A DNA stretch of 23,615 bases from a virus, in the IMG/VR virus record IMGVR_UViG_3300010157_000256, positions 1-23,615 of that record. One strand, given 5' to 3'. The notes under the pieces were generated by a model, which worked only from the letters and a program-made list of their open reading frames with translations, searched no databases and was not told the DNA's origin. The translations under genes were made by a program, and so were the position numbers. Of the stretch, positions 2,567-5,628 are shown in pieces. How positions within the stretch are numbered: the stretch's first letter is position 1; each line of letters opens with the position of its first letter.

Positions 2567-2842
2567 ATGCTAGAAAAACAAGTCGAAACCTACCTCATCA
2601 AGCGCGTCAAAGAGCTTGGTGGGATGGCCTACAAATTCACCAGTCCCCAGCATCGCGGGGTGGCTGACCGTATCGTGTGTTTACCTGACGGCCAGACATG
2701 GTTTGTTGAGGTCAAGACTGAGGGCGGCAGGCTGTCGCCCTTGCAAAAGGTTTTCATGTCGGACATGGCACGCATGAAACAGAACTACGTTTGCCTGTGG
2801 AACAAAGAACAGATCGAAGGGTGGCTCAATGAAATTCGGTAG
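2567..2842 (+). CDS. VRR-NUC domain nuclease
   Basis: A 91-residue stand-alone VRR-NUC (PD-(D/E)XK superfamily) protein, the normal size for phage members. The core is visible as GVADRI (D34), then FVEVKTEGG (E48, K50) and a following Q60 in SPLQ. The N-terminal helix MLEKQVETYLIKRVKELGG is typical of the family and fixes the start at 2567. The start has only a weak AGG upstream and may be translated from a leaderless message. The family cuts branched or structured DNA, and in phages it accompanies replication and recombination genes, commonly beside an SNF2 helicase. Here the last 14 bases overlap the methyltransferase gene. Confidence 0.92.
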   Translation: MLEKQVETYLIKRVKELGGMAYKFTSPQHRGVADRIVCLPDGQTWFVEVKTEGGRLSPLQKVFMSDMARMKQNYVCLWNKEQIEGWLNEIR

Positions 2843-4361
2843 CGTTTGTAGCGGTATTGAGGCCGCATCAGTAGCATGGCATCCGTTGGGGTGGAAAGCT
2901 GCATGGCTGTCTGAAATTGAAAAATTTCCGTGCGCGGTGCTGAAACATCACTATCCAGATGTCCCCAATCTTGGCGACATGACCTTGCTGCCAGAGCGCA
3001 TCCTGTCTGGCGAAATTGAAGCGCCAGATGTGTTTTGCGGTGGCACACCATGTCAAGCCTTTTCAGTCGCTGGGTTGCGTAATTCACTTGATGATGCGCG
3101 TGGAAATCTTTCCTTAACTTTTTGTGAGATAGCAAATGCAATTGACCAAGTACGATCTGTTCAACAATCCAATCCCAGTATTGTCTTCTGGGAAAACGTC
3201 CCCGGTGTCCTCAGTACCAAAGACAACGCCTTTGGGTGCTTTTTGGGAACGCTTGCCGGAGAAGACGATGCGCTCGTCCCACCAGGGGGCAGATGGACTA
3301 ACGCGGGTTTTATTGATGGCCCCCAAAGAGCAGTCGCGTGGCGAGTCCTCGATGCCCAATATTTCGGAGTGGCCCAACGCCGCCGCCGTGTGTTCGTTGT
3401 CGCAAGTGCTAGAGCAGACTTTGATCCCGCAGCGGTTCTTTTTGAGTTCGACGGCGTGCGCCGGGATACTGCGCCGCGCAGAGAAACGGGGCAAAGTATT
3501 GCCCCCACAGTTACAAACGGCGCTCCTTTCAGTCGTACAGGCAACGAGCGAGTAGAGGCCGATGCAATGGTTACCACGGCTCGCATGGTGGCTTTTGGTG
3601 AATATTCAGTTGATGGCACAGCAAGCGCCATGAAGGCGGGGGATTACAAAGACGCTACCGATTTGGTAGCGCAGCCAATTGCTCTTGCCGAAAACACCAT
3701 AGGACGCAAGCCTGAGAACGGTGGCAATGGTGATGGGTTTACTGATGGCGGTCCAATGTACACGCTGAACGCTACGGGTGTGCATGGAGTAGCGCAACCG
3801 ATAGCTTACGCCTTTGACAGCCTCTCATCTAACTCAATGAAATCAAGCAACCCTAATAGCGGCGTTAATCAAGTCAATGTTTCAAAGACTTTAGATACCT
3901 CGCGTGGTCTTGACCCATCTTGCAATCAAGGCGGTATTGGAGTAGCGCAGCCGATACCGCTTAACACAATGAACTGTTTTAGAAGTCCGGATGCAGATGC
4001 AAGTACTGGATGCGGCATTGGTGATGAAGGCGAGGCAATGTTTACCATTACCAAGACAAATAGCCATGCGGTGGCGCAACCAATTGGTTTGGATGAAGAA
4101 CAAAACGCAATGATTGATGCTTTTGGCACACTAAAAGCCAGAACGCAAGGTGGTGGTTTTCAAGGTTCAGTCATGCAAGCCAACATGGATGTGCGCCGCC
4201 TGACCCCAGTGGAATGCGAACGCTTGCAAGGCTTTCCAGACAACTACACCAACATCAAGGACAAATGCCCAGACGGGCCGCGCTACAAGGCGCTGGGTAA
4301 CTCTTGGGCTGTGCCAGTGGTGCGTTGGATTGGCGAGAGGATTGCAAATGAAGTTGCGTGA
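2829..4361 (+). CDS. DNA (cytosine-5) methyltransferase with repeated target-recognition region
   Basis: A 510-residue C5-cytosine methyltransferase that transfers a methyl group from S-adenosylmethionine to cytosine in DNA. Motif I is CSGIEA (7-12). Motif IV is GGTPCQAFS with catalytic C75. Motif VI is WENVPG (E122). Motif VIII is QRRRRVF (183-189). Motif IX is RRLTPVECERLQGFP (456-470). Motif X is GNSWAVPVV (490-498). The region between VIII and IX, which reads the target sequence, is unusually long (about 260 residues) and holds four VAQPI motifs at residues 280, 321, 372 and 415. It starts 14 bases inside the VRR-NUC gene and ends 14 bases inside the helicase gene. It probably protects phage DNA from host restriction; the target sequence cannot be read from the gene. 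A second conserved frame lies inside it at 3136-3555. Confidence 0.93.
   Translation: MKFGSVCSGIEAASVAWHPLGWKAAWLSEIEKFPCAVLKHHYPDVPNLGDMTLLPERILSGEIEAPDVFCGGTPCQAFSVAGLRNSLDDARGNLSLTFCEIANAIDQVRSVQQSNPSIVFWENVPGVLSTKDNAFGCFLGTLAGEDDALVPPGGRWTNAGFIDGPQRAVAWRVLDAQYFGVAQRRRRVFVVASARADFDPAAVLFEFDGVRRDTAPRRETGQSIAPTVTNGAPFSRTGNERVEADAMVTTARMVAFGEYSVDGTASAMKAGDYKDATDLVAQPIALAENTIGRKPENGGNGDGFTDGGPMYTLNATGVHGVAQPIAYAFDSLSSNSMKSSNPNSGVNQVNVSKTLDTSRGLDPSCNQGGIGVAQPIPLNTMNCFRSPDADASTGCGIGDEGEAMFTITKTNSHAVAQPIGLDEEQNAMIDAFGTLKARTQGGGFQGSVMQANMDVRRLTPVECERLQGFPDNYTNIKDKCPDGPRYKALGNSWAVPVVRWIGERIANEVA
3136..3555 (+). CDS. Probable overlapping gene inside the methyltransferase gene (139 aa, +1 frame)
   Basis: An open frame of 139 codons lies wholly inside the methyltransferase gene, shifted by one base. 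Its C-terminal half does not look like a random shadow. It contains SEWPN (77-81), SLSQVLE (87-93), PQRFFLS (98-104) and ACAGILRRAEKRGK (107-120), then LPPQL and a final helix. I recognise this order of motifs from a family of small phage proteins often found beside C5 methyltransferases; that is from memory, with no search run. The methyltransferase frame over the same bases carries its own invariant motif VIII, so both frames appear to be used. The ATG at 3136 has a poor ribosome site; internal ATGs at 3316 and 3352 are alternatives. Function unknown. The basic helical C-terminus could bind nucleic acid. Confidence 0.55.
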   Translation: MQLTKYDLFNNPIPVLSSGKTSPVSSVPKTTPLGAFWERLPEKTMRSSHQGADGLTRVLLMAPKEQSRGESSMPNISEWPNAAAVCSLSQVLEQTLIPQRFFLSSTACAGILRRAEKRGKVLPPQLQTALLSVVQATSE

Positions 4362-5628
4362 CTACCAAGAGGCGGCGGCTGACTTCCTGTACGAACACGA
4401 CAGGGCGATGATCCTCGCGCCAGTGGGTGCTGGCAAGACCGCCATCACGTTGACGGCCATGCAAGATATGCTGGCTGACGGTGTGGTCAAGCGGTTCCTC
4501 GTTCTCGCACCCAAGCGCGTCTGCACCGATGTGTGGCCAGTCGAGCAGCCCAAGTGGGCGGCGCGCTGCACCCTGGCGGTAGCAGTCGGCACGCCTGTGC
4601 AGCGCAAGAAGGCGCTGTACAGCGGCGCGCAGATCATCGTGACCAACTACGACAACATACAGTGGCTGTCGATGCAGAACCTGGCTCACATCGACGGCAT
4701 CGTCTACGACGAACTGACCAAGCTAAAGAACCCGTCGGGCACACGGTTTAAGACGCTGAACAAGGTCATTTGCAACATGAACATCCGCTGGGGCTTGACT
4801 GGCTCGTTCACCAGCAACGGCCTTGAAGACGTGTTCGGCCAGTGCAAGATCGTTGACCAGTCGTTGCTTGGCCGCAGCAAGGGCGCGTTCCAGCAGCAGT
4901 ACTTCATCCTGATCAACAAAGAGTACGGCGACTGGGCACCACGCCCCGGATCGCTGGCGCAGGTCATGGAGCGCATCAAACCAGCCACTTACCTGTTGGA
5001 GCCAGGCGAGTACAAGGACAAGCTGCCGCCGCTGCACACGGTTGAGTTGCAGTGCGACATGGACATGACCGACTACAACACCATGAAGAAGGACTTTGTG
5101 CTGAACGATGTGGTGGCAGTCAACGCGGCTGTGGTCACCCAGAAGTTGCAGCAGATGTCCAGCGGCTTTCTGTACACCGACAACGGCCCGGTCTGGATGT
5201 CGCCGCACAAGTTTGAAAGGCTGGAGGACTTGTTGGCCGAGAACCAGCGCGCCAATACTCTAGTGGTTTACACCTACCAAGAAGAACTGGCCGAACTCAA
5301 GCGCCGCCTGCCGCACGCACAGACGCTGGACGATGACCGGGCGATTGAGCGGTGGAACGCTGGCCAGATTGAGTTGCTGCTGGTGCATCCGAAGTCGGCT
5401 GGCCACGGCCTGAACTTGCAGACGGGTGGCCACCATATTGTCTTCTTGTCGCTGCCTTGGTCGTTGGAGCTGTACGAGCAGACCATCGGGCGGCTGCACC
5501 GCAGCGGCCAGCAGTACGCGGTGTGGTGCTACATCTTGCTGACCCGCAAGACGATTGACGAAAAGATCTGGGGCGCGCTACACGACAAGCGCACATTGTC
5601 TGATATTGCATTGGAGGCTTTGAAATGA
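4348..5628 (+). CDS. SNF2-family (SF2) DNA helicase/ATPase
   Basis: A 426-residue compact SNF2-type helicase as found in phage replication cassettes. It has an RDYQ Q-motif (4-7), Walker A APVGAGKT (GAGKT 27-31), motif Ia LVLAPK (51-56), a TNYDN segment (99-103), Walker B DELTKLKN (121-128), and in the second RecA domain GHGLNLQ and QTIGRLHRSGQ (378-388, arginine fingers). I chose the ATG at 4348, which has GAGAGG upstream, over an in-frame TTG at 4330. The start overlaps the methyltransferase by 14 bases, and the stop overlaps the next ATG (ATGA). It would remodel or unwind DNA with ATP during replication, probably together with the VRR-NUC protein. No extra nuclease domain is present. Confidence 0.93.
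   Translation: MKLRDYQEAAADFLYEHDRAMILAPVGAGKTAITLTAMQDMLADGVVKRFLVLAPKRVCTDVWPVEQPKWAARCTLAVAVGTPVQRKKALYSGAQIIVTNYDNIQWLSMQNLAHIDGIVYDELTKLKNPSGTRFKTLNKVICNMNIRWGLTGSFTSNGLEDVFGQCKIVDQSLLGRSKGAFQQQYFILINKEYGDWAPRPGSLAQVMERIKPATYLLEPGEYKDKLPPLHTVELQCDMDMTDYNTMKKDFVLNDVVAVNAAVVTQKLQQMSSGFLYTDNGPVWMSPHKFERLEDLLAENQRANTLVVYTYQEELAELKRRLPHAQTLDDDRAIERWNAGQIELLLVHPKSAGHGLNLQTGGHHIVFLSLPWSLELYEQTIGRLHRSGQQYAVWCYILLTRKTIDEKIWGALHDKRTLSDIALEALK

Follow-up and report, generated by a model that had tools for sequence, protein, structure and literature searches.

Sequence evidence for a gene nested within a phage C5-cytosine methyltransferase gene and its proposed role as a second enzyme chain

The methyltransferase gene and the frame nested within it

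The window analyzed here, the 23,615-nucleotide IMG/VR virus record IMGVR_UViG_3300010157_000256, encodes a C5-cytosine DNA methyltransferase (alpha) whose gene contains a smaller open reading frame (ORF) in the +1 frame (Table 1). Homology searches place alpha in the Pfam domain PF00145 (E 1.5e-40) and in PHROG 116 (E 3.9e-92), and its predicted fold resembles that of M.HhaI (Z 23.5 over 231 residues). The PHROG and Pfam searches gave no match to a Dam domain in alpha, and an Rfam search returned nothing at the methyltransferase locus. The confident M.HhaI-like fold in the AF2 model comprises alpha residues 1-209 and the C-terminus, while pLDDT remains below 50 across residues 210-439, where a shallow, gappy alignment may be an alternative cause of the low confidence. 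Between motifs VIII and IX, the stretch at 3660-4150 contains recurring 'VAQPIxL' units, is predicted to be disordered, and is very variable in length among relatives. Neighbors of the gene (within 2567-2842 and 4330-5628) include a VRR-NUC-like nuclease (PF08774, E 4.5e-4, which misses the curated threshold) together with an SNF2-type helicase, a replication-recombination setting.

The first-pass annotation of this DNA, made from the letters alone, had claimed a second protein frame at this place, and the +1 frame is indeed open for 139 codons from its ATG (3136) to its stop (3555), inside the methyltransferase ORF. The motifs quoted at that time are present in its translation. SEWPN(A/D)AAV partly echoes motif VIII, as a +1 reading of the bases for FGVAQRRRRV; the independent signal is strongest beyond motif VIII, in SLSxxLE...FFLSxxACxGILRRAxxRGKxLPxxL. 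The N-terminal part of the product overlaps alpha from directly after motif IV to directly before motif VIII, and two helices near the C-terminus (residues 105-118 and 124-138) are predicted with pLDDT >90 (AF2). The protein falls in no Pfam or NCBIfam family. In the PDB, the model has no structural relatives and the sequence no meaningful ones, with no C5 methyltransferase retrieved by the +1 profile up to E 10. A structure search of BFVD returned a sole match (E 6e-3, prob 0.99), the 521-aa A0A8S5LZA8, which is the 'cytosine specific methyltransferase' of Podoviridae sp. ctDgT26. Judging from this model-based match, A0A8S5LZA8 is possibly a version of the nested chain lengthened by a C-terminal half, like the locus L104 described below.

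Table 1 Features of the methyltransferase locus, in window coordinates
Feature	Position	Strand	Remarks
C5-cytosine DNA methyltransferase (alpha chain)	2829..4361	+	510 aa; all catalytic motifs
Alpha motif IV (GGTPCQ), catalytic cysteine	3039..3056	+	Nearly invariant in alignment A4
Shine-Dalgarno-like TGTGAG	3123..3128	+	7 bases upstream of ATG 3136; TAGGT or TAGGG in relatives
Nested +1-frame gene (proposed beta chain)	3136..3555	+	139 aa, pI 9.6; whole ORF within alpha gene
Nested product, N-terminal part	3136..3348	+	Predicted disordered; AF2 pLDDT mostly about 45-60
Alpha motif VI (ENV)	3192..3200	+	Invariant in alignment A4
Alpha motif VIII (QRRRR); same bases read NAAAV in +1	3375..3389	+	Alignment A4
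Nested product, conserved C-terminal core, helical	3391..3543	+	SLSxxLE...FFLSxxACxGILRRAxxRGKxLPxxLxxAL; alignments A1, A2
Alpha residues 210-439, between motifs VIII and IX	3456..4145	+	Low predicted order
Alpha motifs IX and X (RRLTPVECERLQGFP ... YKALGNSWAVPV)	4194..4319	+	Conserved in alignment A4

Constraint on both reading frames

The initial choice of relatives by their +1 peptide carries an ascertainment bias, which was removed by picking 80 loci on alpha residues 1-100 only, a region without +1 overlap. The +1 motif is kept in all 79 of these relatives that reach motif VIII (79/79), and one of the 80 is cut short. Synonymous change was analyzed in 55 non-redundant members (>5% nucleotide difference), again chosen by alpha alone and not fully independent of one another. 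In the alpha frame, synonymous codon identity amounts to 0.49 upstream of the nested ORF, 0.70 in 3136-3348, 0.89 in 3351-3525, and 0.44 downstream (n=55; core vs. outside, Mann-Whitney p 3e-29). In 60-base bins, 3129 marks a jump from 0.45 to 0.73 and 3549 a fall from 0.83 to 0.47. The first-pass annotation had proposed 3364-3525 as the place to look for reduced synonymous change; the reduction is strong there, and the constraint covers the whole +1 ORF, not that stretch alone.

A null model in which the methyltransferase protein is fixed and its codons are resampled leaves the whole +1 ORF open with a mean probability of 0.02, so that 1.3 open frames would be expected among the 55 sequences, against 55 observed. 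In 16 divergent sequences, column identity of the +1 core is 0.62, compared with 0.23 +/- 0.006 in the simulations, and stops occur in 0/16 cores against 12.8/16 simulated; these 16 loci were found by +1 similarity, which is why the tests on alpha-selected sets matter. The second half of the core holds +1 residues that are invariant at sites where alpha is variable, such as the leucines at 3499 and 3511 (+1 identity 1.0, alpha 0.23 and 0.18). Together with the bounded synonymous constraint, the resampling results rule out shadow conservation, in which the +1 peptide would be forced by the methyltransferase protein and a GC-rich codon choice. Such forcing would account for SEWPNxAAV, which is largely motif VIII out of frame, but core identity far above the simulated value, the absence of stops, and invariant +1 residues opposite variable alpha sites speak against it, and we give it practically no credence. 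The reverse null, with the +1 protein fixed and codons resampled, yields an alpha identity of 0.25 against 0.55 observed, so the alpha frame is constrained as well.

The start site is under constraint of its own. ATG 3136 is kept in 55/55 members and is built from alpha AAT|G or GAT|G, though AAC and GAC would be synonymous. At synonymous sites of the Shine-Dalgarno codons, valine is encoded by GTA in 29/30 cases (background 0.13) and glutamate by GAG in 24/25 (background 0.57); phage P1 has GTGGAGCTTGCAAATG at the Shine-Dalgarno position. Across 301 loci, pairing to the anti-Shine-Dalgarno sequence is stronger at the best +1 ATG than at control ATGs (p 4e-16). An internal start at ATG 3351 (MPNISEWPN) was rejected, being not conserved and replaced by ACG in many relatives.

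The conserved ATG 3136 and its Shine-Dalgarno sequence argue against this inner start and also against programmed ribosomal frameshifting near motif VIII, which would produce a methyltransferase truncated in the +1 frame and no separate protein. Frameshifting would fit the onset of the strongest +1 conservation at motif VIII. However, synonymous constraint begins near ATG 3136, some 240 bases ahead of that motif, an invariant slippery run was not noticed there, and the product would be without motifs IX and X, all of which makes this explanation very improbable. The open and conserved +1 frame, the drop in synonymous change, and the kept start indicate that the overlap is a genuine overprinted gene pair. 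By these comparative measures, the pair of nested ORF and methyltransferase proposed in the first-pass annotation is confirmed, with both frames constrained under resampling; neither shows decay, and relatives carry no stops.

Distribution and kinship with single-chain enzymes

A tblastn search with the 63-aa core of the +1 product matched 131 phage records at E<=1e-3, among them the dmt genes of P1 and P7 and phages of Vibrio, Pseudomonas, Pectobacterium, Mycobacterium, Streptococcus, and Ruminococcus. Caulobacter giant phages matched at weaker E-values, and the overlap is present also in gut phages and an archaeal virus. Further matches to the core were found in at least 595 IMG/VR stretches and at least 227 times in bacterial genomes, as well as in 534 plasmid records that are mostly from Escherichia and apparently P1-like. 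Among the plasmid matches listed, nearly all lie under annotated methyltransferase genes.

Homologues of the +1 product thus exist independently of the window. The first-pass annotation placed them near methyltransferases, but in the loci and records collected they lie inside these genes. The core is nested in a methyltransferase frame that spans 200 codons or more in 385/392 loci or records, always in the identical relative frame (L339, the same locus as L495, has a nested core), and in the other seven it overlaps a short or interrupted methyltransferase frame. Free-standing homologues number 0/392 among the viral and bacterial loci or records, and whole-genome searches of 24 bacterial genomes revealed no free-standing copies.

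Several relatives show individual features. In P1 (L001 2210-2683; NC_005856 66728-67201), the nested ORF is preceded by the Shine-Dalgarno sequence GTGGAG and is unannotated in the RefSeq record. P1 dmt carries the nested ORF like the window but, unlike the window alpha, is annotated as a bifunctional Dam and possible C5 enzyme. In the Mycobacterium phage Thibault (L087, NC_023738), an HNH endonuclease gene (gp103) sits in the C5 methyltransferase at motif VIII, and gp104 is the annotation given to what is left of the +1 product. A second type of +1 N-terminus (GPSGWFGRTSPASC...LEPSSGRWANSGMG...) occurs in L047, L059, L081, and many of L232-L311, where it accompanies a different version of alpha.

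In single-chain phage C5 methyltransferases, a segment 'LxDILE..VDEKYYLS' stands in frame directly after motif VIII (RLKDILEDSVDEKYYLS in Javan141, LLRDILEKEVDEKYFLS in BD26P2, LLKDILEDEVDEKYYLS in BT528P2). In MM1 (SLSDILEEEVDERYFLS), SpSL1, P0091, and Drs3, the post-motif-VIII segment instead forms the end of the nested +1 ORF. A profile built from these four +1 ORFs, searched against 24,689 ORFs, retrieves the in-frame segment of Javan141 (E 1e-6), BD26P2 (3e-5), and SPbetaL5 (3e-3), and it matches those of BT528P2 and SpP too. The same streptococcal/Drs3 profile matches the +1 product of the window at 25.1 bits (E 1.6e-5) and has no match in frame 0 of the window, where alpha is without an in-frame xDILE..YYLS segment. 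Single-chain enzymes (M.HhaI as well as Javan141, BD26P2, BT528P2, SPbetaL5, and SpP) share the catalytic fold with the window alpha, and those five phage enzymes carry xDILE..YYLS in frame, whereas in the window the segment is on the separate +1 ORF.

By profile similarity, then, the nested +1 product is related to the in-frame post-motif-VIII segment, and the two are complementary in distribution: among the sampled enzymes, 15 have the segment in +1 and not in frame, five have it in frame, and four have neither. The single-chain Javan141 also gives a weak +1 score (14.6 bits). The likeness extends over about 25 residues only, the in-frame segment lying directly after motif VIII with an alignment that ends near M.HhaI 193-205, and no in-frame counterpart of the ACxGILRRAxxRGKxLPxxL tail was found in C5 methyltransferases.

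This kinship and distribution, along with the absence of any copy outside a C5 methyltransferase gene in the 392 loci and 24 whole genomes, speak against an independent small protein (for example, one for host takeover, anti-restriction, or regulation) that shares DNA with the methyltransferase through genome compactness. A basic, 15-kDa product that has a start of its own and a C-terminus made of helices would suit such a protein, as would the absence of a curated function from Pfam and NCBIfam and the early replication-recombination neighborhood seen in several phages (for example, RecT and an exonuclease upstream in CobraSix). On balance, we consider an independent protein unlikely.

Three loci carry a longer +1 chain. 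In L335 (from a Pseudomonas abyssi genome), L104, and L127, alpha stops after motif VIII and the +1 chain extends through the recognition region and motifs IX-X; the +1 chain of L104 matches PF00145 (E 1.9e-12). As read from their sequences, these loci show the +1 chain and methyltransferase parts on one polypeptide, and they may owe their layout to indels instead of being functional splits. L385 has the same layout and looks like a decayed or frameshifted copy.

A proposed two-chain enzyme and its known counterparts

The 'unknown role' first given to the +1 protein can be replaced by a specific hypothesis, namely that it is a subunit of the same methyltransferase. We propose, with a probability of roughly 0.6, that the locus encodes a two-chain C5-cytosine methyltransferase with the nested gene as its beta chain. 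The long frame would supply the catalytic chain alpha with motifs I to X, and the nested gene would supply a small basic chain, beta, whose translation would start at ATG 3136 behind a dedicated Shine-Dalgarno site. The conserved helical C-terminus of beta would be the displaced equivalent of the in-frame post-motif-VIII segment, which in single-chain enzymes lies at the entrance of the small (target-recognition) domain. Binding to alpha at that place, beta would probably complete or stabilise this domain, and the two chains would jointly bind and methylate DNA. The most likely origin is an old frame displacement directly after motif VIII, following which alpha would have gained new sequence in the other frame; the old segment would have persisted thanks to a new start site further upstream in the same frame as itself. 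Complex formation, the need for beta, and this history of displacement are what we infer from the coding and homology data. The proposal draws further support from the extended +1 chains of L335, L104, and L127, the annotations of phage MM1, and the proven two-chain enzymes M.AquI and M.EcoHK31I. Against it stand the shortness of the similarity to the in-frame segment, the tail for which no in-frame counterpart was found, the failure of the +1 profile to retrieve a C5 methyltransferase from the PDB, and the absence of motif IX from the small chain, unlike M.EcoHK31I.

Alpha, in keeping every catalytic motif, may work alone. Beta would then be a modulator, such as an inhibitor, chaperone, or specificity switch, and no obligatory structural subunit. 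The S. pneumoniae phage SpSL1 has an enzyme that is active in DNA methylation in vivo (PMC6755750), as a modulator would permit, but its methyltransferase has the nested +1 ORF and both frames were present there, so this activity does not discriminate between a modulator and a subunit. Alpha is, however, without the in-frame post-motif-VIII segment of single-chain enzymes, which suggests completion rather than regulation and makes a modulator improbable.

Beyond the window, we tentatively suggest, at somewhat less than even odds, that a large share of phage 'orphan' C5 methyltransferases, P1 Dmt included, may require two chains, the second of them concealed within the gene of the first. A frame displacement after motif VIII would have divided one polypeptide between two nested genes that constrain each other. 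If so, alpha genes that are cloned or codon-optimised would lose the hidden chain and with it their activity, and synonymous recoding or single-ORF cloning is predicted to kill many phage methyltransferases, with relevance to assigning phage modification specificities and to anti-restriction studies. P1 and hundreds of other phages gain a gene that had gone unannotated, overlooked since nested ORFs are suppressed by gene finders, and the proposed frame displacement offers a concrete route to a two-subunit enzyme without DNA duplication.

A literature search found no paper on this nested phage gene family, although the family is partly on record already. The nested pair of phage MM1 1998 (DQ113772) is labelled 'C5 methyltransferase alpha subunit' and 'beta subunit' (orf14 being beta), an older MM1 record (AJ302074) lists orf14 as 'putative methyltransferase', and two nested methyltransferase genes are annotated in P0091. 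PHROG 16143 corresponds to the nested ORF of phage phiARI0746. At E<=0.1 it detects 51/75 relatives, the best of them at 3.8e-12, while its match to the window product alone is not significant (E 0.035). As far as the literature consulted shows, the new elements are the breadth of the family, which extends to P1 dmt; the sequence-based support for dual coding; the kinship of the small chain to the single-chain in-frame segment with its complementary distribution; and a layout in which, unlike in M.EcoHK31I, the large chain retains motif IX. In MM1 orf13/orf14, the nested +1 ORF is at the equivalent place and its C-terminal CSLSDILE..VDERYFLS is recognisably related to the window; the streptococcal proteins stop soon after YFLS, without the ACxGILRRAxxRGKxLPxxL tail of the window product.

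In outline, the kind is known: C5 methyltransferases made of two chains, the small one nested. The nearest precedent is M.EcoHK31I, whose small-chain ORF overlaps the large-chain ORF in another frame. Both M.EcoHK31I (YGGCCR) and M.AquI (CYCGRG) are proven two-chain C5 methyltransferases, the former made, like the proposed window pair, of two polypeptides that constitute one enzyme, and the latter divided naturally behind motif VIII into two polypeptides (PMC3404938), a layout that L335, L104, and L127 resemble. Compared with these systems by description, the window alpha has motifs IV, VI, VIII, and X and the M.HhaI-like fold, in keeping with a large chain of the M.EcoHK31I type, which bears C5 motifs I-VIII and X. 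The layout differs in that the window alpha holds motif IX as well (4194-4238), whereas in M.EcoHK31I it is on the small chain; the window small chain carries the post-motif-VIII segment instead. Unlike the M.AquI arrangement, in which the small chain bears the distal variable region and motifs IX-X, as seen here in L335, L104, and L127, the small chain of the window is without motifs IX-X and is wholly nested within the gene of its proposed partner.
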